Source: an uncultured Eubacteriaceae bacterium (GTDB lineage Bacteria; Bacillota; Clostridia; Eubacteriales; Anaerofustaceae). From it: DNA of 16,348 bases. Within the stretch, counting starts at the first letter, position 1, and every line of letters starts with the position of its first letter. The position numbers were made by a program, and so were the translations under genes. Location: contig CAMSGF010000002.1 in assembly GCA_947058225.1 (NCBI GenBank), positions 1 through 16,348 on the forward strand, read 5' to 3'. Of this stretch, positions 1 through 13,934 are shown in pieces. Below the pieces are notes generated by a model. The model was not told the DNA's origin. It saw only the letters and a program-made list of their open reading frames with translations, and did no database searches.

Positions 1-2
1 TT

Positions 3-89
3 AAAATTAAGATAAGTGAACTGATTTTGAGTTGCGACAATGAGGTAAAACTTGATTTATTTTACCAACTTGCAAAGAAAAGTTTATAA
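3..89 (+). CDS. C-terminal end of an unknown protein (5' cut by window edge)
   Basis: An open frame enters from the left edge and ends at TAA 87-89. It encodes about 28 residues, with a helical and plausible C-terminal composition (…SCDNEVKLDLFYQLAKKSL). The other two forward frames close within the first 15 bases. The stop lies just before a strong hairpin-T-run terminator, which is what one expects at the end of a real rightward gene converging on the leftward repressor. The family cannot be recognised from this fragment. In temperate phages of this layout the position is often taken by an integrase, an ImmA-type protease or a superinfection gene, but nothing here discriminates among them. 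Confidence 0.5.
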   Translation, partial: KIKISELILSCDNEVKLDLFYQLAKKSL

Positions 90-98
90 ATCTTTTCC

Positions 99-125
99 AA
101 GAGGACCGTTAGTCCTCTTTTTTTT
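99..125. terminator. Bidirectional intrinsic terminator between convergent genes
   Basis: The inverted repeat AAGAGGAC (99-106) / GTCCTCTT (112-119) has a 5-nt loop and is followed by a run of T on the + strand (to 125). The left flank is A-rich only next to the stem, so termination should be strongest rightward. It serves the partial gene ending at 89, and the leftward repressor stop codon lies inside the loop (109-111). Confidence 0.8.
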
Positions 126-504
126 GTGATTTAACCAGTCCATCGCAAACTCTCTCAACAATTTGCAATTCTTCCTCTGTAAGCTTTGATAAATCTTCTA
201 TCAGTTTATATATATCTCCACCTATATCATTGATGGCTTTAGAAATAAAATCAGAAACATCATTATTTCTTTCTGAAACAATGTTATCAAATTTTACTAA
301 CATATCTCCTTCTTCATATTTAAGCCATTTGCTACTTATACCGAATTTTGCTTCTATATTTTCGCAAAGTTGAATACTTGGTTCACATCCACCCTTTAAT
401 ATTCTTGATATATGTGTTGGTGTTACATTAATTATTTCAGCAAATTCTTTTTTTTTCTTTCCTGTGAATTTTATAGCTTTTGCAAATCTTTCTTTAGATT
501 CCAT
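109..504 (-). CDS. XRE-family phage repressor (CI-like, no protease domain)
   Basis: Predicted DNA-binding repressor that maintains lysogeny. The frame is open further upstream, but ATG 502-504 is chosen. It gives MESKERFAKAIKF…, has an AGAAGG ribosome binding site just upstream, and avoids a hydrophobic, promoter-overlapping N-terminal extension. The product is 131 aa. The helix-turn-helix lies at about residues 20-43 (EFAEIINVTPTHISRILKGG), followed by the usual SIQLCENIEAKFGISSKWL helices. The C-terminal half is short and helical (LSKLTEEELQIVERVCDGL), probably for oligomerisation. There is no S24/LexA-type peptidase, so induction by RecA-stimulated self-cleavage is unlikely and an ImmA-type protease or antirepressor may be needed. 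It is divergent from the early operon and sits next to TCAAC-N5-GTTGA sites it probably binds. The family call is firm; the operator assignment is inferred. Confidence 0.88.
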   Translation of the reverse strand: MESKERFAKAIKFTGKKKKEFAEIINVTPTHISRILKGGCEPSIQLCENIEAKFGISSKWLKYEEGDMLVKFDNIVSERNNDVSDFISKAINDIGGDIYKLIEDLSKLTEEELQIVERVCDGLVKSQKKED

Positions 505-532
505 ATATGCCCTTCTTTTTATGTTTTTTTTT

Positions 533-561
533 ATATTACCATAATAAATGTTTAGTGTCAA
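533..561 (-). promoter_or_regulatory. Leftward repressor promoter
   Basis: Reading leftward, TTGACA (complement of 556-561), 17 nt, then TAATAT (complement of 533-538), about 30 nt upstream of the repressor ATG. The first operator-like palindrome (570-584) starts 9 bp upstream of this -35 box, a position suited to autoactivation or to repression of the opposing promoter. Confidence 0.75.
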
Positions 562-569
562 TAAAAAAA

Positions 570-584
570 TCAACAAAAAGTTGA
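570..584. promoter_or_regulatory. Operator-like palindrome O1
   Basis: TCAAC-AAAAA-GTTGA is a perfect 5+5 bp inverted repeat between the two divergent promoters. It has the same half-sites and spacing as the palindrome at 633-647 and is a probable repressor or Cro-type site. Confidence 0.65.
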
Positions 585-594
585 AAAAAATATA

Positions 595-623
595 TTGACA
601 ATCAACATTATGTATAGTATAAT
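595..623 (+). promoter_or_regulatory. Rightward early promoter
   Basis: Perfect consensus TTGACA (595-600), 17-nt spacer, TATAAT (618-623). A degenerate operator half-site (602-616, TCAAC-N5-GTATA) fills the spacer, and a perfect palindrome lies just downstream of the expected start. It should drive the early operon beginning with the gene at 676. Confidence 0.9.
602..616. promoter_or_regulatory. Degenerate operator-like site O2
   Basis: TCAAC-ATTAT-GTATA keeps one half-site of the TCAAC-N5-GTTGA motif and lies inside the -35/-10 spacer of the early promoter. Its centre is about 32 bp from O1 and 31 bp from O3, so all three sites would sit on the same helix face. Confidence 0.45.
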
Positions 624-631
624 GTAATAAA

Positions 632-648
632 ATCAACAATATGTTGAT
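632..648. promoter_or_regulatory. Operator-like palindrome O3
   Basis: ATCAACA-ATA-TGTTGAT is a perfect 7+7 bp palindrome that starts 8 bp after the early -10 box, over the expected transcription start. It shares half-sites with O1. A bound repressor here would block early transcription. Confidence 0.7.
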
Positions 649-675
649 AAATTCGTTAAGTGAAAGGAGAAAAAA

Positions 676-828
676 ATGTCAACTAAAGAAAACAATATTA
701 TAGATACAAGTATAACAAATATCATTTTAAAATATCTGGAATTAAAAGAAAAACAAAAGTATTATGTATCAGGTTTAATAAGAGGTTTAGCAATGGATAA
801 AGAAGAAAAGAAAGATAAAGGAGTGTAA
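676..828 (+). CDS. Small early protein, helical, resembles XRE repressor C-terminal tails
   Basis: 50 aa, ATG 676 with a strong site GAAAGGAG (662-669). It is the first gene after the early promoter, where a Cro repressor would be expected, yet no helix-turn-helix is visible. The central part (LELKEKQKYYVSGLIRGLAM) has the amphipathic pattern seen at the C-terminus of many short phage XRE regulators, and loosely resembles the tail of the repressor encoded at 109-504 (LTEEELQIVERVCDGL). It could be a multimerisation-only partner that interferes with the repressor, but that is inference from the pattern alone. The C-terminus is highly charged (KEEKKDKGV). Confidence 0.7.
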   Translation: MSTKENNIIDTSITNIILKYLELKEKQKYYVSGLIRGLAMDKEEKKDKGV

Positions 829-833
829 GGAAA

Positions 834-1019
834 ATGAGTTATAAAGATTTTTTAGACAATATTGACAAATATGTTGGTAAAATAGTTGAGTTTACCATAA
901 AACCAAAAGCAAACAACCAAGTGTTTAAATCTCAGCGTGTAGTGTGGGATAACAAAGAATTTGGACCCCCAAGCAAAGATGCACTTATAGAAGTCCTTTA
1001 TGTTGAAGTTGTGGGATAA
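834..1019 (+). CDS. Hypothetical small early protein
   Basis: 61 aa, starting 6 nt after the previous stop, with GTAAGG as a modest ribosome binding site. It begins MSYKDFLDNIDKYVGKIVEF and looks like a small alpha/beta domain: an N-terminal helix followed by strands (VEFTIKP, LIEVLYVEVV). No known family is recognised. Its tight spacing between two other small early genes supports co-transcription and reality of the gene. A role in the switch to lytic growth or in host take-over would fit the position but nothing in the sequence proves it. Confidence 0.7.
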   Translation: MSYKDFLDNIDKYVGKIVEFTIKPKANNQVFKSQRVVWDNKEFGPPSKDALIEVLYVEVVG

Positions 1020-1043
1020 AAATAAAGATAAAGGAGCGTAAAG

Positions 1044-1232
1044 ATGAAAACAGAATGTCAGATTGTAAAAGAAATTAAAAGGTTGGAAAATAACAAAGAA
1101 ATTCAACTTGAGATTTATACAAGAGCAGACGATACAACAAAAAAAGAAATTAGAAAAATTATCAATGAGTTGGATATTAAGGTAGATGTTTTGTATTGGG
1201 TAATGAAAGATAAAAAATATAGTTGTTTGTAA
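1044..1232 (+). CDS. Hypothetical small helical early protein
   Basis: 62 aa, ATG 1044 preceded by AAAGGAG. It is highly charged and predicted largely helical or coiled-coil (VKEIKRLENNKEIQLEIYTR…KKEIRKIINELDIKVDVLYWVM), ending KKYSCL. No family is recognised; short helical proteins of this type in phages are often annotated only as hypothetical. A notable point is that the last codons and stop (1217-1232) form the 5' outer strand of the closing helix of the structured RNA that follows. A ribosome reaching the stop would therefore compete with that helix. Confidence 0.7.
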   Translation: MKTECQIVKEIKRLENNKEIQLEIYTRADDTTKKEIRKIINELDIKVDVLYWVMKDKKYSCL

Positions 1233-1650
1233 ACATACTTTCGTATGAATATAGGTAGAATATAACAAAAAATCAATAAAGGCTGTATCTTCATTGATTT
1301 AATGTCCGCATTTACACCTTAAGTATTTTGCAATCTTGCGATACAGCAAATACAGCTTACTGCTTCTATGAAATACCCCATCTCTTGACAGTTGCAGTTC
1401 TGTTATTAAAAAGTTTTAATTGCCCTTTTAGCAGATGGGTTAATTAAGAGATAACAATAAAGTAATGACCTTATAGGTAGTCTAACCCGTGTTTTTAACG
1501 CTGTTCTCTCATCGTAATTACTTATTGTTAAATTTATTTAATTAAGGAACAGGGCAAATTCAAAAACTGGGTCAATAAAAACACCACCTTTATAAAGAAT
1601 TTGCCACTAAAGGCAAAAACATACGAAAGTATGTTCATAAACAATTATAT
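1217..1650 (+). ncRNA. RNA1: large structured non-coding RNA, about 434 nt
   Basis: A 441-base stretch without a credible ORF (1233-1673). The closing helix P1 pairs 1217-1247 with 1620-1650: 30 of 31 positions pair, the inner 16 perfectly, two are G-U and one is an A-C mismatch. Internal helices are P2 1270-1277/1293-1300; P3 1323-1331/1346-1353 (one bulge); P4 1377-1383/1433-1439 enclosing hairpins 1387-1391/1400-1404 and 1405-1410/1415-1420; P5 1440-1447/1538-1545 continuing as 1452-1466/1517-1530; and P6 1553-1561/1597-1605. The P2 loop TGTATC (1284-1289) can kiss the P3 loop GATACA (1340-1345). CTGTTC (1501-1506) matches GAACAG (1547-1552) as a possible pseudoknot. The wobble pairs in P1 are G-U only if the + strand is transcribed. 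I do not recognise a named RNA class, and group I and II intron hallmarks are absent. A miniature inverted-repeat element is the main alternative. Confidence 0.7.
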
Positions 1651-1673
1651 AAAAAAAGAAAGGAAAAGCAATA

Positions 1674-1869
1674 ATGAATTTTGGCGATTATATAAAAGAA
1701 GAAAGAGAAAAACAAGGATTATCTCAAGGCGATTTAGCAAAAAAAAGCAGGATTAACAAGACGAACAATACAATACTATGAACAAGAAAATAGGCAACCC
1801 TCATTTGCAAATGCAACAAAAGTTTTAAATGCTTTGGGTTTTGATTTGAAAATCATTGAACAAAATTAA
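1674..1869 (+). pseudogene. Small XRE-family HTH gene interrupted by a +1 frameshift
   Basis: ATG 1674 has an AAAGG ribosome binding site and reads MNFGDYIKEEREKQGLSQGDLAKK before a run of eight A (1739-1746). In the annotated frame it then soon stops (TGA 1780-1782). Skipping one A continues as AGLTRRTIQYYEQENRQPS…LNALGFDLKIIEQN to TAA 1867-1869. The restored product is about 64 aa with a complete XRE helix-turn-helix at roughly residues 16-42. The good start site and intact downstream half suggest a very recent lesion, a homopolymer sequencing error, or transcriptional slippage on the A-run. It lies exactly between the two structured RNAs, so its intact form could be their regulator or simply a second Cro-like repressor. 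Confidence 0.8.
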
Positions 1870-1876
1870 ATATCAA

Positions 1877-2035
1877 TATTAAGTGTTAAGGCAGAGGGGT
1901 AAAGCGTACCTCCTTTCAGTGATATTAAAATAATGAGCGTTCAGAGTGCCGGCTACACTCTAAATAAAAGATAGATGAATCGATTGACTGTTTTTGTACA
2001 TAATCACGCTTACCCCTCTGCCTTAATGCTTAATA
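1877..2035 (+). ncRNA. RNA2: structured RNA with long closing helix and displayed anti-SD
   Basis: The closing helix pairs 1877-1907 with 2006-2035: 30 pairs with one bulged A (1901) and two adjacent wobble pairs (1884/2028, 1885/2027) that are G-U on the + strand only, which supports a transcribed + strand RNA. The GC-rich core is GGCAGAGGGG (1890-1899) against CCCCTCTGCC (2013-2022). The interior holds a hairpin AGAGTG (1943-1948) / CACTCT (1956-1961) with loop CCGGCTA. Just inside the helix, apparently unpaired, is ACCTCCTTTC (1908-1917). This is identical to the anti-Shine-Dalgarno tail of Bacillota 16S rRNA and complementary to GAAAGGAG sites in this phage. There is no T-run, so it is not a simple terminator. 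I recognise no known class; the 6S RNA architecture does not match. Confidence 0.7.
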
Positions 2036-2158
2036 GATAATACCACCGATTTTGAAAGCATTAAATATAAATCATTTATATGAAAAAGTGAGGTGAAAAC
2101 TTTTCCTAAACACTATACTTTATACTTTTCAGTTATGTTATTAGGTGGGAAAAAATAT

Positions 2159-2215
2159 TTTACCCTTTGCTTATCAGCATAAAAAAATAATAACTAAATT
2201 TTTATAAAGGGTAAA
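2159..2215 (+). promoter_or_regulatory. Stem-loop in the leader of the excisionase-like gene
   Basis: TTTACCCTTT (2159-2168) and AAAGGGTAAA (2206-2215) form a perfect 10-bp stem around a 37-nt, mostly A/T loop. There is no T-run after it, so it is more likely a leader structure or a processing site than a terminator. The rest of 2036-2270 holds small AT-rich hairpins (2065-2071/2075-2081; 2084-2089/2099-2104) but no convincing gene. Confidence 0.5.
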
Positions 2216-2270
2216 CAGCGTAAGGGGGTGATAATCCTGCAAAACAAAATCTATAAGAAAGGAGAAAAAA

Positions 2271-2579
2271 GTGAAAGAAACATTATCAGTGGTTGAAGTG
2301 GCAAAATATTTACATAAAAAGCCTGAACTAATAAGAGCAGGCATTAAGAGTGGAGTATTACCGTTTGGGGTATGTGTTGAAGGTAAGGTGGATAATTTTA
2401 TCATAGTGAGAGAACGCTTTGAAAGATGGGTAAAAGGTATGGATATGGACAAAGTTGCAGAAAAAGAAAAAAGGCTTGATGAAATGTTAAATACGCTTCA
2501 AATGCAAATGGATATTTTAAATGACCAAATATATTTTTTTAACAAAGAAAAGAATATGCAAGCAAAGAGGGGGAGTTAA
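2271..2579 (+). CDS. Excisionase/MerR-type HTH DNA-binding protein
   Basis: 102 aa, GTG 2271 with an ideal site AAAGGAGA (2258-2265). Residues 5-60 (LSVVEVAKYLHKKPELIRAG … RERFERWVKG) match the compact winged HTH of the excisionase/HTH_17 group: a first helix choosing the site, a recognition helix after KKPELIRAGIKSG, and a beta wing with VDNFII. The C-terminal third (about 62-95) is a coiled coil (EKRLDEMLNTLQMQMDILNDQ). Such proteins sit just upstream of the replication genes in many clostridial phages and act as excisionases or transcription factors. No integrase is in the window, so the precise role is open. Confidence 0.75.
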   Translation: MKETLSVVEVAKYLHKKPELIRAGIKSGVLPFGVCVEGKVDNFIIVRERFERWVKGMDMDKVAEKEKRLDEMLNTLQMQMDILNDQIYFFNKEKNMQAKRGS

Positions 2580-2752
2580 TGTGTAGTTTTATATTAGATT
2601 TAATTTTATTCTTGTGCATAGCATTTATGGTTGTGTATATAGAAGATGAAAAAGAAAGAAAGGAGAAAGACAATGAAAAACGACATAAAAAAAAGCATTC
2701 CTGCAAAAGCAAGAATGCCACAAAAAACCAAGACTATATTATCAGATTATAA
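2579..2752 (+). CDS. Small single-span membrane protein
   Basis: 57 aa, ATG 2579 overlapping the previous stop as TAATG, with GGGGGAG just upstream. Residues 4-21 (FILDLILFLCIAFMVVYI) form one hydrophobic segment. The rest is a very basic and acidic cytoplasmic tail (EDEKERKEKDNEKRHKKKH…). No family is recognised. Its last third overlaps, in another frame, a 32-aa ORF with its own strong ribosome binding site, so part of the charged tail may be constrained by, or merely a shadow of, that frame. Confidence 0.55.
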   Translation: MCSFILDLILFLCIAFMVVYIEDEKERKEKDNEKRHKKKHSCKSKNATKNQDYIIRL

Positions 2753-2771
2753 GAGAAATTTCAAGAGGTAA
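2673..2771 (+). CDS. Tiny basic protein overlapping the membrane protein tail
   Basis: 32 aa, ATG 2673 preceded by AAAGGAG at good spacing, overlapping the 2579-2752 gene in a different frame for about 80 bases. The product is very basic (MKNDIKKSIPAKARMPQKTK…), ending in KR encoded by AAG AGG TAA, where the AGAGG also serves as the ribosome binding site of the gene at 2775. That junction sequence recurs at the next two gene boundaries, which supports real translation and coupling. The function is unknown; a nucleic-acid-binding peptide is possible from charge alone. Confidence 0.5.
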   Translation: MKNDIKKSIPAKARMPQKTKTILSDYKRNFKR

Positions 2772-2774
2772 TTT

Positions 2775-3071
2775 ATGAAAAATAAAGAAACAATTAGTAA
2801 TATGCATCCAATGCACCTATTTGAAGAAACACGTGCTATTGAAACGCATTATGTTGAAAAAATAGAAACGTATATCGTAAACACGAGATTTATAACAACA
2901 GATGAAGAAAAACAACTTATTTCAGATGATATTGACCGTATTTTGTATTTGACAGATGAGATTAAAAACAGTCTTGAAAACATACAAAAAAAGTGCTGTC
3001 CGACTATAGAAAGAGATTATGTCAGATGGTATATTGACAAAAATACGGGGGAACGATATTCAAAGAGGTAA
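2775..3071 (+). CDS. Hypothetical phage protein
   Basis: 98 aa, ATG 2775 preceded by AGAGGTAATTT. Predicted mostly helical in residues 15-72 (HLFEETRAIETHYVEKIETY…DIDRILYLTDEIKNSLENIQ), then KKCCPTIERDYVRWYIDK with a Cys pair. It ends in KR, encoded by AAG AGG before TAA, which feeds the ribosome binding site of the following gene. No known domain is recognised. The position between the excisionase-like gene and the replication initiator is typical for small unannotated early genes of clostridial phages. Confidence 0.7.
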   Translation: MKNKETISNMHPMHLFEETRAIETHYVEKIETYIVNTRFITTDEEKQLISDDIDRILYLTDEIKNSLENIQKKCCPTIERDYVRWYIDKNTGERYSKR

Positions 3072-3074
3072 TTT

Positions 3075-3395
3075 ATGTTAGAAGTAAAAAAAGCAGATTT
3101 ATTAAGAATGTTAGCAGAAGCAAATGAGGAGTTAGAAAAAGGGCAGAAAAATTTTAATAATTTTGCACTTAAAAATAATTTGGATGATTTGACGGAAAAT
3201 CAACAGGAAAAGTTTATAAAGGAAACACAAAAACAAACTTTTGCTTTAGGTATTAAAATTGCACTTGAGGCAATTTTATTCCACGAAAGTCCTTGTATTT
3301 CAGAAATATTGGATGAGTACGATAAAGTAATAGGTACAACCAACAATATAGATACAAAAGACAATGTTATTAGCTTGTCAGACTTAAAAAAATAG
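3075..3395 (+). CDS. Hypothetical phage protein, helical
   Basis: 106 aa, ATG 3075 with the AGAGGTAATTT initiation cassette. Strongly helical and acidic: an N-terminal helix pair (VKKADLLRMLAEANEELEKG…), a central stretch (NNLDDLTENQQEKFIKETQK) and a hydrophobic amphipathic helix (FALGIKIALEAILFHES). The tail (NVISLSDLKK) is short and polar. No family is recognised. It lies 9 nt upstream of the initiator gene and is probably co-translated with it, so an accessory replication role is conceivable but not shown by the sequence. Confidence 0.7.
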   Translation: MLEVKKADLLRMLAEANEELEKGQKNFNNFALKNNLDDLTENQQEKFIKETQKQTFALGIKIALEAILFHESPCISEILDEYDKVIGTTNNIDTKDNVISLSDLKK

Positions 3396-3404
3396 AGGTA
3401 ACTT

Positions 3405-4142
3405 ATGAAAGATGAAAATTACATAGTTTTGCAAGGGTGGATGATTAATAAATTAAATTTAAAAGGAAATGAATTAACTGTGTATGCTTTGATATATGGA
3501 TACTCACAAAATGGTGAAAATACATACAAAGCAAGTCTACAAACAATAAGTAAAGATACTAATATAACAAGACAATCTTGTTTAAATATTTTAAATAAAT
3601 TATTAGAAAAGAAATTAATTTTTAAAAGTAATTATACAAAAGATTTTAGCGAATATTTTATAAATTTCGATGCTGTCAAAAATTTTGACAATGAAGATGT
3701 AGATGTCAAAAAAATTGACTGTACTGTCAAAAATTTAGACAACAGTGTCAAAAAAATTGACAGCACTGTCAAAAAAATTGACGGTGTACATCTAATAAAT
3801 ATATATAATAATAATTTATATATTATATATAAATATATATGCGATTATTTGAACGAAAAAGCAGGAACGAATTATAAGCATTCAACAGACAAAACAAAAC
3901 AAAAAATCAAGGCAAGACTAAACGAGGGATTTACGATTAACGATTTTGAAAAAGTAATTGATACAAAAGTCAGTGAGTGGAAAGGTACAGACTTTGAAAA
4001 GTTTTTACGACCAGAAACTCTGTTTGGCACAAAGTTTGAAAGTTATCTAAATCAGAAATTTAAAAAGAAAAAAAACGAAATACCAAAAGATTACCAAGTG
4101 GATTACTTAACACCAACTGTAATTGTAGGAGATGAAACATAA
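3405..4142 (+). CDS. Phage replication initiator (wHTH plus Phg_2220_C domain)
   Basis: 245 aa. Residues 1-85 form a winged helix of the replisome-organiser type (LKGNELTVYALIYGY … ISKDTNITRQSCLNILNKLL). Residues about 147-217 match the Phg_2220_C / TIGR02220 family (YLNEKAGTNYKHS…KIKARLNEGFTINDFEKVI … PETLFGTKFESYL). The linker, about residues 90-127, contains heptad-like repeats VKKID/VKNLD that exist because the underlying DNA carries five 17-bp iterons. The protein should bind those iterons, melt the AT-rich stretch beside them and recruit the loader encoded immediately downstream (ATG overlaps this stop region at 4142). This resembles the arrangement of lambda O. Function by family and context is confident; the binding target is inferred. 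Confidence 0.88.
   Translation: MKDENYIVLQGWMINKLNLKGNELTVYALIYGYSQNGENTYKASLQTISKDTNITRQSCLNILNKLLEKKLIFKSNYTKDFSEYFINFDAVKNFDNEDVDVKKIDCTVKNLDNSVKKIDSTVKKIDGVHLINIYNNNLYIIYKYICDYLNEKAGTNYKHSTDKTKQKIKARLNEGFTINDFEKVIDTKVSEWKGTDFEKFLRPETLFGTKFESYLNQKFKKKKNEIPKDYQVDYLTPTVIVGDET
3674..3845. other. Probable phage replication origin: five iterons plus AT-rich DUE
   Basis: Five 17-bp near-palindromic repeats of consensus TGTCAAAAAAATTGACA lie at 3674-3690, 3704-3720, 3725-3741, 3746-3762 and 3767-3783. The last four start exactly 21 bp apart (two helical turns, seven codons). Directly downstream, 3790-3840 is almost pure A/T (ATATATAATAATAATTTATA…), a candidate unwinding element. All of it lies inside the initiator gene, as in lambdoid and many Gram-positive phage origins. 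Confidence 0.82.
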
Positions 4143-4963
4143 TGGAAAGTTTAAAAGAAAGTTTAGATAAAGTTAGTTTGTCAGATATATTAAGTGTTAA
4201 TAAAATAAGAAATTTGCAAAATGATGAATTTTTAAAAGATAACTTGATTTACTGTAAAACTTGTAAGACCCCAAGAGAAGCAATAATTAAACATAAAGAC
4301 GAACAATACAAGGTAAACATTAATTGCAAATGTCAGCAGGAAAAGTATGATATGCAAGAAGAAAAACAAAGGGTATGGAATAATCAATCAAAAAATATTA
4401 AAGACCTTGATAGTTTAAGTATTGATGTAAATATTTTAACGGGATACAGCTTTAAAAGTGATGATATGAGTAAACCTGTTATATCAAAGTACATAGTGGA
4501 ATATGTGAGAAATTTTAAAGATAATTTAAAAAACAATAGAGGCATTTTGTTTAGTGGGTATGTAGGTGTGGGCAAAACTTTTTACAGTAGAATTATCGCA
4601 AACGAATTATATAAAAAAGGTTATTTAGTTTTACCGTTAAGGATAACAGATTTAATTAAAATTTACAGTAGTTTCAAAGACAGTGACAAAATGATGAAAC
4701 TTGAAAGAATGTTAAAAACTTATGATTTAGTCATAATTGATGATTTAGGAGCAGAAAGACAGTCCGAATTTGCCACAGAAAGAATATTTGATGTGTTTGA
4801 CATAAGGTATGATACTCATAAACCTTTGATAGTAACTACAAACTTAACCAATAAGGATATAAGTAAATCGTCAATGGAAGTAGCAAGAATTTTTGACAGA
4901 ATTAACGGAATGTGTACTCAAAGGTTTTTGCTTGAGGGTAAATCAAAGAGAATAAAGGAGTAA
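4142..4963 (+). CDS. DnaC/DnaI-like helicase loader ATPase
   Basis: 273 aa AAA+ ATPase that should load the host replicative helicase at the phage origin. An N-terminal zinc-binding module has Cys 38, 41, 62 and 64 (CKTCKTP…NCKC). Walker A is GYVGVGKT (139-146), Walker B LVIIDDLG (196-203), sensor-1 VTTN (231-234), with Arg residues around 249-253 (ARIFDRI) as arginine-finger candidates. Length and order match phage DnaC-like loaders. The ATG overlaps the end of the initiator gene, so the two are translationally coupled. No helicase or primase is encoded in this window, so the partner is most likely the host DnaB/DnaC-type helicase. The dnaC name is not assigned because DnaC and DnaI subtypes cannot be separated by eye. 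Confidence 0.9.
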   Translation: MESLKESLDKVSLSDILSVNKIRNLQNDEFLKDNLIYCKTCKTPREAIIKHKDEQYKVNINCKCQQEKYDMQEEKQRVWNNQSKNIKDLDSLSIDVNILTGYSFKSDDMSKPVISKYIVEYVRNFKDNLKNNRGILFSGYVGVGKTFYSRIIANELYKKGYLVLPLRITDLIKIYSSFKDSDKMMKLERMLKTYDLVIIDDLGAERQSEFATERIFDVFDIRYDTHKPLIVTTNLTNKDISKSSMEVARIFDRINGMCTQRFLLEGKSKRIKE

Positions 4964-4967
4964 GAAA

Positions 4968-5228
4968 GTGAGTTATTACAAAGATACAGTTGAAAATATC
5001 AATAGTGTCATAGCAGAACAAGAAAAGTATTATGTATACAAAGTAAACAAGGAAGTATTTAAAATCATAAAGTTATGTGCAGAAATAGTTGAAGAACACA
5101 ATCACGCAAAATTTAATTTTGACAAAGTAAAGCAGTTTGTACCGCATATAGCAGAACTTAACAAGCTTTATGCTTGCTGGCAGTTGATAGAATTGTTTGA
5201 TAAAGAATTAATGAAAGATGAGGTGTAG
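4968..5228 (+). CDS. Hypothetical phage protein, helical
   Basis: 86 aa. GTG 4968 is used, with AAAGGAG upstream overlapping the end of the loader gene. Sequence MSYYKDTVENINSVIAEQEK… is helical throughout, with a Cys/aromatic-rich C-terminal helix (LNKLYACWQLIELFDKEL). No known domain is recognised. It sits between the helicase loader and a DUF4406 protein with a 2-nt gap downstream, so it is part of the replication operon. A helicase-loader accessory role is possible by position only. Confidence 0.7.
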   Translation: MSYYKDTVENINSVIAEQEKYYVYKVNKEVFKIIKLCAEIVEEHNHAKFNFDKVKQFVPHIAELNKLYACWQLIELFDKELMKDEV

Positions 5229-5230
5229 TT

Positions 5231-5572
5231 ATGAGTAAAGAAACAGTATACATAGCAGGGGCAATAAGTTCAGACCCTAACTATAAAGAAAAGTTTAGAA
5301 AAGCACAAGAGAAAATAGAAGCGATGAAATTTAGGGTATTAAGTCCAACATTTATCAAAGAGGGGCTAAATTATGAGGATTACTTTCCTTTGTGTTATGG
5401 AATGATTGATGAAGCTAATTATATCGTTATTATTGATTATTCAAAAGGAGTGGGAAGAGAAATTCAATATATCGAAGATGTGAAAGAAAATGGAATTGAT
5501 GATGTTTACGGACTTAAAGAATTTATTGAAAAGTTTGGTAGAGAAATGGAAGAAACGGAAAATCAACTATAG
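5231..5572 (+). CDS. DUF4406 protein (nucleoside deoxyribosyltransferase-like fold)
   Basis: 113 aa, close to the usual length of DUF4406 proteins. The N-terminal strand and turn VYIAGAISSDPNYKEKF (6-22) and the later block (MIDEANYIVIIDYSKGVGREIQYIED) are the family signatures: a Rossmann-like fold related to nucleoside 2-deoxyribosyltransferases, with G9-A10 at the nucleotide-binding turn and the GVGREI segment at the second half-site. The substrate is not known for phage members; a role in nucleotide metabolism or modification during replication is the general expectation. The start follows the previous stop by 2 nt. Confidence 0.82.
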   Translation: MSKETVYIAGAISSDPNYKEKFRKAQEKIEAMKFRVLSPTFIKEGLNYEDYFPLCYGMIDEANYIVIIDYSKGVGREIQYIEDVKENGIDDVYGLKEFIEKFGREMEETENQL

Positions 5573-5581
5573 GAGAGATAT

Positions 5582-5716
5582 ATGATAACAGAACTTGAAC
5601 TTGAAAGAAGAGAACACCTTGATTGGTGGGGAACACCACCAAAGCTGACTAAATATGACGATGAAAGGAAAATAAAAAATGCTACAAAGCGAAGAAAAAA
5701 GCAAGACAGAAATTAA
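5582..5716 (+). CDS. Small basic hypothetical protein
   Basis: 44 aa, ATG 5582 with AGGAGAG upstream. The N-terminal half has a characteristic REHLDWWGTPPKLTKYDDER, and the C-terminus is very basic (KNATKRRKKQDRN). The DWWGTPP segment resembles the small conserved phage peptides seen between DUF4406 and Gp157 genes, but I cannot name a family. Its 3' end overlaps the next small ORF in a different frame. Confidence 0.6.
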   Translation: MITELELERREHLDWWGTPPKLTKYDDERKIKNATKRRKKQDRN

Positions 5717-5801
5717 GGAAACTTTAGAAGATGTGCTTGATATAAAGATACCAAAACTTGAAGAATTTGACTATATAAAAGAGAGGAGTAAAAAATGTTA
5801 A
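5679..5801 (+). CDS. Small acidic helical hypothetical protein
   Basis: 40 aa, ATG 5679 with GAAAGGA upstream (5663-5669). It overlaps the preceding gene by about 38 bases and the next start (ATG 5795) by 7. Composition is helical (EIKETLEDVLDIKIPKLEEF). It has no known domain. The strong ribosome binding site and the nested overlaps typical of this operon are the main support; it could still be a chance frame. Confidence 0.45.
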   Translation: MLQSEEKSKTEIKETLEDVLDIKIPKLEEFDYIKERSKKC

Positions 5802-6283
5802 AGATAAAAGACAGTGTTGATTTAGAACGTTTGAAAAATTATGGTTTCAGTAAGATAACAGATGCCCAATGGATAAAAAAAGAAGAACAAGTTTGTTCAG
5901 ATGGAAAATTTAATGTCAAAATTGTTGTGAACTCGTCTGAAAGTAGTATACAAAACGAAATAAATTTCTTTATTGAAAATCCTTATTTTGAGTTTTACGA
6001 TACAAAAATTATTTTGGTTGGAATTTTTGATGCAGTGTATGATTTGATAGAAAATGGATTAGTGGAAAAAGTTCCTTATAAAAACGAGGACCTTACAAAC
6101 ATACGAAGTTCTTTTGAAGAATTAAGCAAAAAGCTATGTGAAGCACAATCAATGATAGATTCTATAGCACAAGAAAATACGGTAAAAGAAATAAACGGTG
6201 ATATTTTTGACCTTTTGGAGAATTTTCAAAAGAAGTTGTCCGATATAAATAGCATTCAAAGAAAGGTAGATGAATTGAGATGA
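5795..6283 (+). CDS. Hypothetical phage protein sharing an MLKIKD domain with the gene at 9179
   Basis: 162 aa, ATG 5795 with GAGAGGAG upstream. The N-terminal 95 residues begin MLKIKDSVDLERLKNYGF and end YDLIENGLVEKV; the same frame pattern forms the whole of the 87-aa protein encoded at 9179-9442, so the two are paralogues. This version adds a 65-residue helical or coiled-coil tail (SSFEELSKKLCEAQSMIDSI…FQKKLSDINSIQRKVDELR). No biochemical function is known to me. It overlaps the Gp157 start by 4 nt and is therefore coupled with it. Confidence 0.75.
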   Translation: MLKIKDSVDLERLKNYGFSKITDAQWIKKEEQVCSDGKFNVKIVVNSSESSIQNEINFFIENPYFEFYDTKIILVGIFDAVYDLIENGLVEKVPYKNEDLTNIRSSFEELSKKLCEAQSMIDSIAQENTVKEINGDIFDLLENFQKKLSDINSIQRKVDELR

Positions 6284-6780
6284 AATTATATGATATAAAA
6301 AAAGAATTGCTTGATATTTACAGTGATTTAGTAGATGAAGAAACAGGAGAAATAGACGAAGAAAAAGTACATAGATTTGAACAGCTTTCAATAGCAAAAG
6401 AAGAAAAAGAAGAAAACACAGCACTTTACATAAAAACGCTTGACTATGATATAAAGTCTTTAAAAGAAGAAAAAAAGAGGATAGACAGAAAAATAAAAAG
6501 TGCTGAACAAACAAAAGGATTTTTAAAAGGAATGCTTGAGTATTCACTTGCTGGGCAAACGATAAAAACACCACAAGTTACAGTAAGTTACAGAAAAAGC
6601 GAAAGCGTGAAACTTGATGATGATTTTATCGATTATGCGATGAAACACGGATATGAAGATTTGGTAAAAGAAAGTATAGATTATAAAGCGAAAAAGACGG
6701 AAATTAAGAAAAAACTTAAAGCAGGTGAGAAAATTCCTCATTGTGAGTTAGAAATAAAGCAAAATATACAAATAAAGTAG
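6280..6780 (+). CDS. Siphovirus Gp157 family protein
   Basis: 166 aa, matching the Gp157 family in length and order. It has an N-terminal helix (MKLYDIKKELLDIYSDLVDE ETG), a long coiled coil at about residues 40-88 (…ALYIKTLDYDIKSLKEEKKR…AEQTKGFLKGML), then the family's conserved beta part (TPQVTVSYRKSESVKLDD, about 98-115) and a C-terminal segment (KKTEIKKKLKAGEKIPHCEL). A Streptococcus thermophilus phage member of this family was linked to resistance to superinfection, but the biochemical role is not settled. It lies directly upstream of the MazG-like and Sak4-like genes, a common neighbourhood for recombination modules. Confidence 0.9.
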   Translation: MKLYDIKKELLDIYSDLVDEETGEIDEEKVHRFEQLSIAKEEKEENTALYIKTLDYDIKSLKEEKKRIDRKIKSAEQTKGFLKGMLEYSLAGQTIKTPQVTVSYRKSESVKLDDDFIDYAMKHGYEDLVKESIDYKAKKTEIKKKLKAGEKIPHCELEIKQNIQIK

Positions 6781-6789
6781 AGGAAAGAA

Positions 6790-7074
6790 ATGTTTAAGAT
6801 AAAAAGTAAGTTACAAAAGAAATTAAAGAAGATATACGATTTTTACGGTGAAACACTACAACAAGGGCAACTTATCGAAGAAATGGAAGAGTTGAAAGTA
6901 GCAATAAATAAAAATGACAGAGAAAACTATATTGAAGAAATGGCAGATGTTTTGGTTGTATGGATGCAGTTATTTTTAGCTATGGAGGAAAAAGAAAAGC
7001 ACAAACTGTTAAAGACCGTAAATTACAAAGTAAATAGAACATTAAAGAGAATTAAAGATATTCAAAATAAATAA
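6790..7074 (+). CDS. MazG-like all-alpha NTP pyrophosphohydrolase
   Basis: 94 aa, short for the superfamily but with its metal-binding motif. The EExxE-type helix is IEEMEEL (29-35), and the downstream ExxD helix is IEEMADVLV (48-56). The predicted fold is a four-helix dimer that hydrolyses (d)NTPs to (d)NMPs and PPi. In phages this may protect the nucleotide pool or lower alarmone signalling; the substrate cannot be told from sequence. The N-terminal KIKSKLQKKLKKI is unusually basic. ATG 6790 has AGAGGAAAG upstream, and the gene follows Gp157 after 9 nt. Confidence 0.78.
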   Translation: MFKIKSKLQKKLKKIYDFYGETLQQGQLIEEMEELKVAINKNDRENYIEEMADVLVVWMQLFLAMEEKEKHKLLKTVNYKVNRTLKRIKDIQNK

Positions 7075-7089
7075 AAGGAGATATAAAAA

Positions 7090-7728
7090 ATGGCTATACC
7101 AATATTGATTATAGGTAAAAGCGGAACAGGTAAAAGTACAAGTTTGAGAAACTTTAAAAAAGACGATGTTGGAATTATAAATGTCATAGGTAAGCCTTTG
7201 CCTTTCCAAAATGATTTAAAAACGGTACATACAGATAATTACAGACAGATAGAAAATATCCTTTTAAAATCAGAAACAGACAGTATAGTAATTGACGATG
7301 CAGGATATTTGCTTACTAACTATTTTATGAAAGGACACAGAAGTAAAGAAGATGTATTCGGCTTTTATGATGATTTAGCCGATGAGTTTTGGAAACTGAT
7401 AAACATAATTACAAATAAAATGAGTAAGGAAAAATTGGTTTATATCATAATGCACGAAGAAACAAACGATATAGGAGAAGTTAAACCAAAAACAATAGGT
7501 AAGTTACTAAATGAAAAAGTATGTATTGAAGGTATGTGTACTATAGCTTTAAGAACAGCAAGGGTAAACGGAGAGTATAAGTTTTTAACACAATCAAACG
7601 GACTTGATATTTGTAAATCTCCTATGGGTATGTTTGAAAGCGAAACAATAGACAACGATTTAAAAATGGTAGATGACACTATAAGAAAATATTATAAATT
7701 TGATAAAAAGAAAGGAAGTAAAGAATAA
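7090..7728 (+). CDS. Sak4-like RecA-fold ATPase (AAA_24), single-strand annealing/recombination
   Basis: 212 aa. Walker A is GKSGTGKS (9-16) and Walker B SIVIDDAGY (65-73), with HEE at about 122-124 in the position of the catalytic or sensor segment. This is the AAA_24 phage nucleotide-binding family that includes Sak4, a shortened RecA/Rad51-type core that promotes annealing together with an SSB. The next gene, overlapping by TAATG, encodes an SSB-like protein with an acidic DDDCPF-type tail, the partner expected for Sak4. ATG 7090 has AAAGGAG upstream. The family is confident; recombinase activity is inferred from family and neighbour. Confidence 0.85.
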   Translation: MAIPILIIGKSGTGKSTSLRNFKKDDVGIINVIGKPLPFQNDLKTVHTDNYRQIENILLKSETDSIVIDDAGYLLTNYFMKGHRSKEDVFGFYDDLADEFWKLINIITNKMSKEKLVYIIMHEETNDIGEVKPKTIGKLLNEKVCIEGMCTIALRTARVNGEYKFLTQSNGLDICKSPMGMFESETIDNDLKMVDDTIRKYYKFDKKKGSKE

Positions 7729-8321
7729 TGGGAGTTTTTGATAATTATGATAATGTAGAACCAAAAAGAAAGGGAGAATATAACTCTTTGCCTGCAGGTG
7801 CGTATGTAGCAAGGATAAAAAGAGCCGAAGAAGTAGGAAATGACAAATACACAGCATTAAAAATTAATTTTGATATAGAACAAGGAGAATATAAAGGCTA
7901 CTTTGAAGAACTATATAAAAATCAAAATAAAGATAACAGAAGTTGGAGAGGCAGTTTTTACGCATTCTATCCTAAAGACAACGAATATTATGCCAGCAGT
8001 GCAGGAGAGTTAAAACACAATATTGAATCAATAGAAAAATCAAATGCAGGCTTTAAGATGAGTCATACAAGCGACGGTTTTACTGGGGAAAGCATAGCAC
8101 AGTTAAGTGGTAAACTTGTCGGAGTTATCTTCTTTGAAAAAGAATATCTTAATAAGTTTGGTAAAGTAAAAACAGGTATTAATGTTTGGGGCTTTGAAAC
8201 AGTTGAAGATGTGTTAAGTGGTAATTATGAAATACCCCCAAAACAAGAACTAAAACAAGAAACACAAAGTAGTGATATGAGTGGTTTTAACGAATTTGAT
8301 AACGATGATTGCCCATTCTAA
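7728..8321 (+). CDS. Phage single-stranded-DNA-binding protein (DUF669-like)
   Basis: 197 aa, ATG 7728 overlapping the Sak4 stop (TAATG). The N-terminus (MGVFDNYDNVEPKRKGEYNS followed by LPAGAYVARIKRAE) and the INFDIEQGEYKGYF block fit the DUF669-type phage proteins that function as SSBs. The last residues (GFNEFDNDDCPF) imitate the acidic DDDIPF tail with which bacterial SSBs recruit partners. It would coat ssDNA and load or guide the Sak4-like annealing ATPase. The linker before the tail is Q/E/K-rich (PPKQELKQETQSS), as in SSB tails. The assignment rests on family pattern, tail and neighbour; no fold was computed. Confidence 0.82.
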   Translation: MGVFDNYDNVEPKRKGEYNSLPAGAYVARIKRAEEVGNDKYTALKINFDIEQGEYKGYFEELYKNQNKDNRSWRGSFYAFYPKDNEYYASSAGELKHNIESIEKSNAGFKMSHTSDGFTGESIAQLSGKLVGVIFFEKEYLNKFGKVKTGINVWGFETVEDVLSGNYEIPPKQELKQETQSSDMSGFNEFDNDDCPF

Positions 8322-8959
8322 TGATAGGAAAAATTGTTAATTACGACGGCGAAACTCTGACAATTCAAGCAGAATACTATGATAGCATTCTGCTTGAGGA
8401 CAGAAATGTAACCGAAGTAGAAATAAGACTAAAAGACGGTAGAGAGATAAGCAGAGAGCAACAAAAGAAAGTATATGCCTTATTAAGAGATATAGGAGAT
8501 TATACGGGGTATGTAGGGGAAGATATAAAAGACATAATGAAATATGACTTTATAGCTAAAACAGGTTGCGATGAGTTTTCTCTCTCCGATGTGGATATGA
8601 CAACGGCAAGAAACTTCATTGAACACTTAATTGAGTTTTGTTTAATCAATGATATACCTTGTAGAGATAGTCTTTTGTCTTATACATCAGACATAGGTAA
8701 ATATGTATATTTGTGTCTACTGCATAAAAAGTGTTGTATAAGTGGGAAAAGAGCAGAATTACATCATACAGACGCTGTAGGAATGGGAAGAAACAGAAAC
8801 GAAATAACACACATAGGTATGAGAGCAATGCCTTTGAGTAGGAAATATCACAATGAAGTACACACAATAGGACAAGCTAAGTTTAATGAAAAATATCATA
8901 TCTACGGTGTAAAGATAGACAAGGTAATTGCAAGTAAATATAGACAGATAAGGGGGTAA
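8321..8959 (+). CDS. HNHc_6 putative HNH nuclease (recombination-associated)
   Basis: 212 aa. ATG 8321 overlaps the SSB stop as TAATG; an upstream in-frame TTG (8309) would lie inside the SSB tail and is rejected. The N-terminal beta domain (MIGKIVNYDGETLTIQAEYY) is followed by ISREQQKKVYALLRDIGDYTG and then the nuclease part: AELHHTDAVGMGRNRNEITH (about 145-164) and SRKYHNEVH (about 173-181). Together these are the HNHc_6 signature with the HH…N…H metal site. The preceding CCISGK is a degenerate zinc-ribbon half. The family occurs in staphylococcal and clostridial phages next to SSB and recombinases and may act on branched DNA. The exact substrate is unknown. Confidence 0.88.
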   Translation: MIGKIVNYDGETLTIQAEYYDSILLEDRNVTEVEIRLKDGREISREQQKKVYALLRDIGDYTGYVGEDIKDIMKYDFIAKTGCDEFSLSDVDMTTARNFIEHLIEFCLINDIPCRDSLLSYTSDIGKYVYLCLLHKKCCISGKRAELHHTDAVGMGRNRNEITHIGMRAMPLSRKYHNEVHTIGQAKFNEKYHIYGVKIDKVIASKYRQIRG

Positions 8960-8960
8960 G

Positions 8961-9185
8961 ATGAAAAAAAATATTATTAAAGGTTTAAGACAAGAAATTT
9001 TAAAGATAAAAAAGGATTTTGACCTTATAACTTTAGATTACTGTATACGAAGTGTATCGTCTGAAAAAGAAGTTGAAGGGAAAAAAAGACTTGCTTCACA
9101 AAAAATTGAAGATGATATATGGAAAGTCATAGATGATATAGATTGTCTTTTGGAATTGATTGAAAAAGGAGAAAAACAATGCTAA
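8961..9185 (+). CDS. Hypothetical small helical protein
   Basis: 74 aa, ATG 8961 directly after the nuclease stop with AAGGGGGTAAG as ribosome binding site. It is all-helical and charged (LRQEILKIKKDFDLITLDYC…IEDDIWKVIDDIDCLLELIE). No domain is recognised. It overlaps the next gene by 7 nt. The antiparallel helix-pair look would suit a small adaptor or regulator; nothing more can be said from sequence. Confidence 0.7.
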   Translation: MKKNIIKGLRQEILKIKKDFDLITLDYCIRSVSSEKEVEGKKRLASQKIEDDIWKVIDDIDCLLELIEKGEKQC

Positions 9186-9442
9186 AGATAAAAGATGATG
9201 TTGATTTAAAAGAACTTGAAAAATATGGAGTTTTTCCTATTGATGATGAAGAAAAAGAGTTTGGTAAAATTGTAAGTGAAGATACAGATGCTATTTTTAT
9301 GGCAATGGAAGTAAACAAAAAAAGAGAATTGGAGTATATGCTGATTGCAGGAAAAAAAGTTAAATTTGATGAAAGCTATTATATACTTTGCAACGATACT
9401 TTATATGATTTAATTAGCGATGGTTTGATTGAAAAAGTATAG
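9179..9442 (+). CDS. Hypothetical protein, paralogue of the gene at 5795 (MLKIKD domain)
   Basis: 87 aa, overlapping the previous gene by 7 nt; AAAAGGAG upstream. MLKIKDDVDLKELEKYGVFP at the start and LYDLISDGLIEKV at the end mirror the N-terminal domain of the 162-aa protein at 5795-6283 (MLKIKDSVDLERLKNYGF … VYDLIENGLVEKV). The middle is divergent. The two copies lie about 3 kb apart in one operon. The short version lacks the coiled-coil tail, so it may be a free domain competing with, or partnering, the longer protein. No biochemical function is known to me. Confidence 0.72.
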   Translation: MLKIKDDVDLKELEKYGVFPIDDEEKEFGKIVSEDTDAIFMAMEVNKKRELEYMLIAGKKVKFDESYYILCNDTLYDLISDGLIEKV

Positions 9443-9469
9443 AAGAAGAAAAGGAGCAAAGAGAAATAA

Positions 9470-9748
9470 ATGGAAGTAGTGCTAAAGAGAACAGCAAAAC
9501 AAATGTTTAAAAATTTAGGTTTTGAATGTGAAATTAATACCACAGGAGATAAAATATGGCGTATTTGCTACACAAGGAAATTTTTAAATATGTTGGGTAA
9601 TGAGATAACAGAAAAAATTATATTCAGAACACTTTATAACGGATATACAGCATTTGCAACTGATAAATATTTTAATACATTTTCTGGTTTTTACATAAAT
9701 GTACCTTTATTTAAAGCGATACAACAACAAATGAAAGAATTAGGGTGA
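9470..9748 (+). CDS. Hypothetical phage protein, alpha/beta
   Basis: 92 aa, ATG 9470; the AAAAGGAG (9450-9457) lies about 12 nt upstream, rather far. Strand-rich: ECEINTTGDKIWRICYTRKF, then EKIIFRTLYNGYTAFATDKYF and a C-terminal helix (LFKAIQQQMKELG). This layout is common among small phage proteins placed at the end of replication operons, but I do not recognise a named family. It is co-directional with the rest of the operon and followed after 6 nt by a membrane protein gene. Confidence 0.65.
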   Translation: MEVVLKRTAKQMFKNLGFECEINTTGDKIWRICYTRKFLNMLGNEITEKIIFRTLYNGYTAFATDKYFNTFSGFYINVPLFKAIQQQMKELG

Positions 9749-9754
9749 TAAATT

Positions 9755-10159
9755 ATGCAAAGTTTAAATTTAATGATAACAAAAATAGTGGAATACTTTG
9801 ATGTTTCGGTAAAGTTTTTACAACAAAATCTTATGGATTATATACTTGAATATGGGAGATATGGATTAGTGAATAATCTTTTTGATGATGTTTTTACGAT
9901 TATTCCTCTTATTTGTATACCTTTAGCTTTATTTACTTTTTTTCAGCTCTGCGACGTATTTGAGTATGATTTTAGTGAAAATGCAGTAAGTTCTTTTAAA
10001 AGGAAAATGAAACCTGTATTAATAATAGCTATTAGTATTTTTTCGTTTCTAAGTATTATGACAATAGCTTACGAACTTATTTCATATAAAGTAAGTCCTA
10101 CGATGTATTCAGTGCAAGAAGTATATCAAGATTTTGTAATAAATAACAAAGGAGAATGA
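9755..10159 (+). CDS. Two-span membrane protein of unknown function
   Basis: 134 aa, ATG 9755 with TTAGGGTGATAA upstream. Two clear transmembrane segments lie at about residues 47-66 (FTIIPLICIPLALFTFFQL) and 87-109 (PVLIIAISIFSFLSIMTIAY), separated by a short polar loop with basic residues (SSFKRKMK, 79-86) that would face the cytoplasm. The N-terminal amphipathic helix precedes TM1. It is too early in the map and has the wrong topology for a typical holin. A superinfection-exclusion or accessory role is possible but not supported by any motif. Confidence 0.7.
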   Translation: MQSLNLMITKIVEYFDVSVKFLQQNLMDYILEYGRYGLVNNLFDDVFTIIPLICIPLALFTFFQLCDVFEYDFSENAVSSFKRKMKPVLIIAISIFSFLSIMTIAYELISYKVSPTMYSVQEVYQDFVINNKGE

Positions 10160-10160
10160 T

Positions 10161-10769
10161 ATGGAAAAATTAATATTTGAAGATTGTATAAATTTAGTTG
10201 GTAAAAAAGTATGGGATAACACAAATAAAAAGTATGTGTTTATTGAGAGTGTTTATCATAGCTATAATTATATAAAAGGTTGTAATGAAGTAAAAATCAC
10301 TTTCATCCACGATGGAACTCTTTATGATATAAATGAATTAGAGCTATACAAAGAAAAGCCAAATATTCATTGGAAACCTAAATATGATGAAGAATTTTTT
10401 AAAGTCTATAAGAATTATTATACTAAATGGGAATATACGTTTGATATATATACAGATGGCTGTAAGTATAGCAAAATACATATAGATAGTTTAATTTTTA
10501 AATCGGAAGAAGAAGCGAAAAAGTGTTGTGAAGTGTTGAACTTTATAGAGGAGCATAAATTATCCAAAAACGAAATTACAGACAAAATTAATAATGACGA
10601 TAATATTTATGAGTTAGTGCTTGACCATTATGCAAGAGTTATAAAAATTGAAGAAACATTAGATTTGACTAACACAGATTATTTTAGCATGAGAAACGCA
10701 AAAGAAATTATGGGTAAGTTCTCATATCAAGAATTAGTAAAATATTATTTTAGGTTGCCAGTTGATTAA
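10161..10769 (+). CDS. Hypothetical phage protein
   Basis: 202 aa, ATG 10161 with AAAGGAG upstream, 1 nt after the membrane protein stop. The N-terminal half is strand-rich and aromatic (INLVGKKVWDNTNKKYVFIE, then CNEVKITFIHDGTLYDINEL); the C-terminal half is helical (EEAKKCCEVLNFIEEHKLSK …). An internal WEYTFDIYTDGCKYSKIHID block looks like a beta-sheet core. It could be an SH3-like plus helical two-domain protein, but I do not recognise a family. It precedes the RNA ligase-like gene by 33 nt. Confidence 0.65.
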   Translation: MEKLIFEDCINLVGKKVWDNTNKKYVFIESVYHSYNYIKGCNEVKITFIHDGTLYDINELELYKEKPNIHWKPKYDEEFFKVYKNYYTKWEYTFDIYTDGCKYSKIHIDSLIFKSEEEAKKCCEVLNFIEEHKLSKNEITDKINNDDNIYELVLDHYARVIKIEETLDLTNTDYFSMRNAKEIMGKFSYQELVKYYFRLPVD

Positions 10770-10802
10770 ACGTAAATTAAATAAAAAAACAAGGAGTAAA
10801 TT

Positions 10803-11423: not shown

Positions 11424-11436
11424 AAAAAATAGTATT

Positions 11437-11781
11437 ATGAGATTAAACAATTATTCAAAGTATAGAAATAAAAAAGTAGTAGTAGACGGAATAACATTTG
11501 ACAGTACGAAAGAAGCTAACAGGTATAAAGAGTTAAAGCTATTGTTAAGAGCAGGAGAGATAAAAGACTTAAAACTTCAAGTACCTTATGAGCTGATACC
11601 AACACAAAGAGATGAGAGGGGAAAGGTAATTGAACGAAATTGTGTATATAAGGCAGACTTTGTATACGAAGAAAACGGTAAAACTATCGTAGAAGATACA
11701 AAAGGTTTTAAAACTCCTGAATACATAATTAAGAGGAAGTTAATGTTAAAGACATACGGCATAAGGATAAAGGAAGTGTAG
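11437..11781 (+). CDS. DUF1064 family endonuclease-like protein
   Basis: 114 aa, typical DUF1064 length. The family pattern is clear: KVVVDGITFDSTKEANRYKE (13-32), then LLRAGEIKDLKLQVPYEL, and YKADFVYEENGKTIVEDTKG (71-90) with candidate PD-(D/E)xK residues E26, D74, E86 and K89. Members are phage nucleases related in fold to Holliday-junction-resolvase-like enzymes, so it may trim replication or recombination intermediates beside the Sak4/SSB/HNH set. The ribosome binding site is weak (AATAGTATT before ATG 11437), unlike its neighbours. The fold assignment comes from the family, the activity is inferred. Confidence 0.83.
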   Translation: MRLNNYSKYRNKKVVVDGITFDSTKEANRYKELKLLLRAGEIKDLKLQVPYELIPTQRDERGKVIERNCVYKADFVYEENGKTIVEDTKGFKTPEYIIKRKLMLKTYGIRIKEV

Positions 11782-11785
11782 AAAA

Positions 11786-12350: not shown

Positions 12351-12366
12351 AAGAGGAGGTGAAAAG

Positions 12367-12666: not shown

Positions 12667-12669
12667 GTA

Positions 12670-13226: not shown

Positions 13227-13229
13227 TGT

Positions 13230-13269: not shown

Positions 13270-13297
13270 TGCGTATTGATATACCAAGTAACCTATG

Positions 13298-13928: not shown

Positions 13929-13934
13929 ATAATT

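Follow-up and report, generated by a model that had tools for sequence, protein, structure and literature searches.

A FuFi-1 RNA with a tiny leader open reading frame and long-range pairings beyond its Rfam model, set in the immunity regions of temperate phages

The stretch of DNA analysed here, which we call the window, comprises positions 1 to 16,348 (16,348 nucleotides) of contig CAMSGF010000002.1 from an uncultured Eubacteriaceae bacterium, and it almost certainly encodes an RNA of the FuFi-1 family (RF02986). The family itself is known; what is new here is a longer RNA architecture, a conserved tiny open reading frame (ORF), and a setting in phage immunity regions. An Rfam scan of the whole window returned FuFi-1 as its single match at curated thresholds, located at 1439-1267 on the minus strand with a score of 99.6 bits against a gathering score of 59.6 (E 5.8e-21) and covering positions 1-175 of the 175 in the model. 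Neither GOLLD, ROOL nor HEARO was matched by Rfam in the window, a search of 1190-2100 at E up to 1 gave FuFi-1 alone, and no tRNA was found in the structured stretch. The RNA that we propose is about 355 nt long, the Rfam model represents its 3' half alone, and its features are as follows.

1264 to 1618, minus strand: whole proposed RNA, from alignment with 33 homologues; both ends are putative, the 5' end near 1618 being taken from the promoter position in homologues and the 3' end being placed near 1264
1267 to 1439, minus strand: the Rfam FuFi-1 match, model 1-175 of 175
1264 to 1302, minus strand: terminator-type hairpin, AU-rich, with a T-run, which is the last hairpin of FuFi-1
1600 to 1617, minus strand: 5' hairpin UUUGCC-UUUAGU-GGCAAA, from the terminator scan, sited as TGCC-N-GGCA in homologues
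1584 to 1591, minus strand: Shine-Dalgarno-like site AAAGGTGG, ahead of the tiny ORF
1538 to 1606, minus strand: 5' element outside the Rfam model (Shine-Dalgarno-like site, tiny ORF and neighbourhood), from profile R1
1534 to 1575, minus strand: tiny ORF, TTG to TAA, with a start offset shared with homologues

The first-pass annotation of this DNA had recognised a large, conserved structured RNA borne by a phage, and this much stands, as homologues occur in varied temperate phages and show covariation. Its description of the RNA as previously unrecognised gives way to the family assignment, and its choice of the plus strand is rejected, since the family match, the T-run, the Shine-Dalgarno-like site, the start codon, and the promoter-like boxes of homologues all lie on the minus strand. 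Because the FuFi-1 match sits on the minus strand, the RNA is read leftward, against the early genes. The folding-energy z-scores for 1217-1650 are -6.61 on the plus strand and -6.82 on the minus strand, and -3.85 for the minus strand of 1618-1264, which is without the flanking arms discussed below (100 shuffles each), and these values therefore indicate structure beyond chance on both strands, with the plus strand not favoured by thermodynamics. The helices proposed earlier are borne out to that extent, and the three-way junction placed at 1377-1439 corresponds to the first helix of FuFi-1 and the GCAGAAC hairpin, though on the opposite strand to the one assumed. In place of a region said to hold neither a terminator nor an ORF, the minus-strand FuFi-1 match closes in a hairpin and T-run (about 1302-1264), and the same strand carries a short ORF preceded by a site of Shine-Dalgarno type. 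The T-run lies at 1270-1264 after the terminal hairpin in the FuFi-1 alignment and has the same place in homologues; a simple terminator scan did not list this AU-rich hairpin and listed instead the 5' hairpin at 1617-1600 on the minus strand.

FuFi-1 is rare in the genomes sampled. The window's own genome, an assembly that is 84.5% complete and in 222 contigs, holds one copy, and, with that genome included, the family was found in 3 of 149 relatives (two of them over the cut-off) and in 2 of 398 genomes of a phylum sample; a sub-threshold match also turned up in Bacillus subtilis, one of 14 control genomes. When the window RNA was compared by BLASTN with a phage collection, nothing was returned, and the same held for the L004, L006, L059, and L107 RNAs; that of L084 returned one phage and one plasmid record via the ORF segment alone, both of which carry FuFi-1. 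Pattern scans supplied 22 genome and 65 viral stretches, and two more viral scans gave 75 and 7, with overlaps, many pattern-scan stretches being chance matches. Among the 22 stretches from genomes, fourteen exceed the FuFi-1 gathering score, every one of them bearing the title of Clostridia or of a family or genus within it, and four (L010, L012, L017, and L028) fall below it, the scoring having covered 18 of the 22 and left out L011, L013, L015, and L016. The full-element alignment comprises 34 loci, window included, of which 32 are above the gathering score and two, L036 (47.1 bits) and L070, are below it; these two were too divergent for the pairing tests and the start-codon count. Excluded from the alignment were the duplicates L043, L048, L051, and L071, together with L008, L020, L022, L057, L155, and L161, in which the ORF or the 3' motif was unanchored. 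Some contigs that bear FuFi-1 also carry other RNAs, namely a ROOL RNA with tRNA genes in L034 (281-873, 297.6 bits), a DUF3800-VII RNA in L059 (10083-10163), and a 6A RNA in L047 (1551-1601).

The homologues share elements 5' of the Rfam match, which in the window reach up to about 180 nt further. Their order is a hairpin of the form TGCC-N-GGCA (in most homologues), a Shine-Dalgarno-like site, a TTG or ATG start, and about 12 codons. R1, a sequence profile of the 5' element built from 30 sequences with the window left out, finds the element in the window at 1606-1538 on the minus strand (E 8.9e-14, 45 bits, where the second-best match there reaches 7.7 bits), and the best R1 score in 51 other viral-scan loci is 19.9 bits, these being taken as chance matches to the core 16-mer. 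A further FuFi-1 5' element of 48.9 bits lies at 4264-4193 of L136, on a contig without a FuFi-1 match at the gathering score, and is either a remnant or a different RNA with the same leader.

The short ORF is of the MTKLLTLPVPLI type in homologues and reads MTQFLNLPCSLIK in the window. Its start codon lies exactly 21 nt before a proline codon in 30 of the 33 anchored sequences (L121 is unanchored, and L065 is scored as a miss), an ATG stands one codon earlier in two others, L018 and L035, and one sequence fits neither pattern; the start codons in this set are TTG in 27 and ATG in 5. Both L018 and L035 have TTA at the usual start position and ATG one codon before it, so that the relocated starts are as expected of a translated frame. 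A Shine-Dalgarno-like 4-mer is present in 32 of the 33 by a lax test, for which one of six purine-rich 4-mers located within 16 nt suffices. In the homologues, the RNA gene has its own promoter-like sequence and its own terminator-type hairpin; in most of them, boxes resembling -35 and -10 elements can be seen by eye, ending a few bases short of the 5' hairpin. In the window the candidate promoter is poor, and one arm of an inverted repeat occupies the place of these boxes. Repeats of the RNA promoter region occur nearby with z > 4 in 13 of 36 loci, those convincing by eye, besides the arms, being few (L007, L009, and L166).

Three covarying pairings, S1:S2, S3:S4, and a loop-loop contact, lie outside the nested consensus of the Rfam model. 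In the window, their segments are the following.

1552 to 1556, minus strand: S1, UGCCC, within the ORF, pairs with S2
1421 to 1425, minus strand: S2, GGGCA, partner of S1
1542 to 1547, minus strand: S3, CCUUAA, at the end of the ORF, pairs with S4
1317 to 1322, minus strand: S4, UUAAGG, partner of S3
1350 to 1356, minus strand: hairpin loop GCUGUAU, with complementarity to the loop of the terminal hairpin
1282 to 1288, minus strand: terminal-hairpin loop AUACAGC, read from sequence, partner of 1356-1350

S1 is mostly UGCCY, and its partner RGGCA stands ahead of the GCAGAAC hairpin. With the segments picked by hand, 153 of 160 S1:S2 pairs form across 32 sequences; re-dealing the partners, a procedure that, here and below, ignores the relatedness of the sequences, gives 142.9 on average and 149 at most. 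Variation in this pairing is small, mostly UGCCU:AGGCA or UGCCC:GGGC, and the telling changes are UACCC:GGGUA in L034, CGCCC:GGGCG in L066, and UGCCA:UGGCA in L121. In the case of S3:S4, S3 consists of the last ORF codons (CCC-U, CUC-U, CUC-A, CCC-G, and UCU-U, for example) and S4 of the four bases that precede UAAACA, a motif close to the 3' end, and at four pairs per sequence 123 of 128 form in 32 sequences, where 5000 re-dealings averaged 104.3 and did not exceed 113; this final set has four sequences set by hand, and automatic extraction gave 111 of 120 in 30 sequences. The pairing is broken in L018 and kept in L165 and L166, two loci found later, with the new combination CCAGA:UCUGG. The loop-loop contact offers perfect complementarity over a 7-mer in 29 of 34 loci (mean 6.9 and maximum 14 in 1000 re-dealings) and is missed in L047, L059, L065, L128, and L165. 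That count was made without a loop finder; an earlier test, in which the finder missed several loci including the window, had given 24 of 32. The window loop at 1350-1356 also matches CUGUAUC just 3' of it, and two neighbouring partners fit. Covariation of this kind supports either strand alike.

Across the homologues, the RNA gene lies in a temperate-phage immunity region, where it shares its strand with the CI-like repressor and integrase and runs against the early lytic operon. A first same-strand downstream ORF was assigned in 29 of the 34 loci (none for L018, L027, L066, L074, and L106, and hand-chosen below the length or distance cut-off for L025, L036, and L049), and it matches HTH_3 in 26 of these 29 and Peptidase_S24 in 8. 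All seven S24-like phmmer matches, the query included, are on the RNA's strand and downstream of it, and the same holds for all seven members of an integrase cluster, two of which are confirmed as Phage_integrase, and for all five members of a second cluster that resembles serine recombinases. For example, L165, from a gut phage, and L166, from Vescimonas fastidiosa, have the arrangement HTH(-), FuFi-1(+), HTH(+), and a same-strand integrase, the plus-strand HTH of L165 being below the Pfam cut-off and the complete order in L166 being HTH(-), unannotated RNA, HTH(+), two small minus-strand ORFs, HTH(+), and integrase(+). In both, a further promoter seems, by eye, to lie between RNA and repressor, and read-through may therefore be unimportant there. 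No dedicated partner protein was seen on clustering 366 ORFs around the 34 loci and L008, in which the clusters that recur are HTH regulators (31 loci, one loose cluster), two that resemble recombinases (7 and 5 loci), and three more with 3 loci each.

The corresponding repressor in the window shares the RNA's strand.

109 to 639, minus strand: CI-like repressor, a mechanical ORF with its likely start near 507 (Pfam HTH_3, E 3.1e-7; PHROG transcriptional regulator)

Three predicted early ORFs lie between the end of the RNA and this repressor, and a divergent early promoter at 595-623 matches 12 of 12 consensus positions. PHROG matches to a replication initiation protein, a DnaC-like loader, a Sak4-like annealing protein, and the terminase large subunit (3405-4963, 7090-7728, and 14535-15803) indicate that the contig belongs to a temperate phage or prophage. 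A Cro-like HTH frame starts at 1674 (MNFGDYIKEEREKQGLSQGDLAKKS...; 1674-1869) and runs into stops, with its continuation apparently in another frame, and it likely carries a frameshift.

We lean toward a role for FuFi-1 in lysis-lysogeny control. The fuller statement, that it acts in the lysis-lysogeny switch as a stand-alone phage RNA in which folding and translation of the leader ORF compete, seems to us evenly poised between right and wrong. Telling against it are the poor promoter of the window, the three early ORFs between the window RNA and its repressor, the further promoter in L165 and L166, the variable ORF tail, the small variation in S1:S2, and the broken S3:S4 in L018. A tentative mechanism for such competition, which we hold to be less likely than not, is a ribosome switch, in which a ribosome would initiate at the transcript's tiny ORF and, while translating it, would cover S1 and S3 and so exclude S1:S2 and S3:S4. 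Without translation, the long-range helices together with the loop-loop contact would lock the ORF, the 3' motif, and the terminal hairpin into one compact fold. The two states might differ in termination, with read-through toward the repressor like that of a PRE transcript, or they might differ in how active or how stable the finished RNA is, and the lysis-lysogeny choice would thereby be tied to the translation state of the host. The further idea that FuFi-1 is an RNA decision device of temperate phages, a stand-alone transcript from the repressor strand in which ribosomes on the 12-codon leader ORF open or close the tertiary fold and terminator and the translation state of the host is read, is speculative and rather unlikely.

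One alternative is that the RNA acts as a plain antisense or trans-acting small RNA of the OOP kind, which would pair with a lytic mRNA and lower its expression, the ORF being incidental. In its favour are the RNA's own promoter-like boxes and terminal hairpin, its course opposite the early operon, and the presence, in 22 of 34 loci, of an ORF of 58 aa or more on the opposite strand within 450 nt of the RNA 3' end; this ORF matches HTH_3 in 9 of the 22, with one match each to Rha, Bro-N, and KilAC. However, no opposite-strand ORF meeting the cut-offs was assigned in the other 12, the window included, the overlapped sequence varies between phages, an antisense RNA has no need of a conserved tertiary fold, and retention of the start codon and Shine-Dalgarno-like site, with relocation in L018 and L035, speaks against an incidental ORF. 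We regard this alternative as possible, at well under even chances. Slightly less probable is a dual-function mRNA, whose product would be the short hydrophobic peptide, acting as a regulator or mild toxin, with its translation governed by the RNA body. The long-range pairing that spans the ORF would be in keeping with this, as would the conserved start, the Shine-Dalgarno-like site, and a peptide core of the MTKLLTLP type that is kept in the 32 peptides read, but the conserved codons overlap the pairing segments, so that constraint on the RNA may explain part of the conservation, and the peptides are merely 11-32 aa long with ORF tails that are variable beyond about the 11th codon.

The inverted repeat around the RNA bears on a third alternative.

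1620 to 1650, minus strand: upstream arm, which covers the place of the promoter
1217 to 1247, plus strand: downstream arm, which overlaps the 3' end of the ORF at 1044-1232

The repeat is real, its 31-nt arms being 90% complementary, and the pairing described for it in the first-pass annotation (30 pairs over 31 positions, with both wobbles on the plus strand) is reproduced when counted by hand on that strand, as 28 Watson-Crick pairs, two G-U pairs, and one A-C. The closing helix that the arms form is no feature of the family. Of 35 loci examined, 5 have strong inverted repeats immediately on either side of the RNA (window, L005, L085, L116, and L149; z > 11); of these, L005 is a sub-threshold FuFi-1 locus (43.6 bits) whose 5' element matches too (E 3.7e-4), and shorter flanking inverted repeats are present in other loci. 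In seven more (L007, L009, L025, L036, L058, L080, and L121) the repeats are reached by at most 2 of 100 shuffles, though they are mostly distant or short and stand outside the count of five. The upstream arm of the window overlaps a dyad, AACATAC-N4-GTATGTT (1618-1635), where the promoter should be, a position that would suit an operator, and in L116 and L149 the upstream arm, ahead of the RNA promoter, resembles over about 30 nt the neighbouring cro-like coding sequence, inverted across the RNA gene. Of these two readings, operator and inverted duplication, neither accounts for all five arm-bearing loci. The arms are not the ends of one element, because their sequences are unrelated among the five loci, and a MITE-like or other mobile element bounded by 31-nt terminal repeats, for which the real arms of the window, the five loci, and the cro-like resemblance in L149 and L116 might be cited, is most improbable given also that the incomplete own genome holds one FuFi-1 copy and one arm pair and that the arms overlap promoters or coding DNA. 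A search for relatives of three cro-like genes, in which empty sites might be read, returned the query contigs alone. A second inverted repeat lies between early genes of the window at 1877-1902 and 2010-2035 (26 nt, 92% complementary, 107 nt apart), where no Rfam family came near threshold.

In the literature searched, which excluded the original description of the family, we found no function for FuFi-1 (RF02986), nor the longer architecture or the immunity-region setting, some of which that original description may note. Its placing in the immunity region, its roughly doubled length, and a conserved leader ORF tied into its fold give this orphan RNA a testable role and suggest that some temperate phages of Clostridia employ a structured RNA alongside CI and Cro.

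Several known systems share individual traits with this RNA. The OOP and PRE transcripts of phage lambda come from the repressor strand, against the early operon and near cro, and OOP, which runs against that operon, pairs with a lytic mRNA. Compared by description alone, FuFi-1 has the same orientation as both, whereas OOP is much shorter and neither is structured in a like manner. Leader-peptide attenuators have a short ORF with segments that pair with downstream RNA, followed by a terminator; the window RNA differs in having no directly following gene in the same direction and in placing an elaborate fold between ORF and terminator. In type I toxin messengers, the RNA body controls translation of a short toxic peptide, and of that arrangement, a toxic membrane peptide with an antisense antitoxin, the short ORF is the part established in the window. 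ROOL and GOLLD are likewise large structured phage RNAs, and the window matches neither family. Finally, in comparison with the 175-position model of FuFi-1 itself, the window RNA has further 5' elements, a tiny ORF, and three extra pairings.
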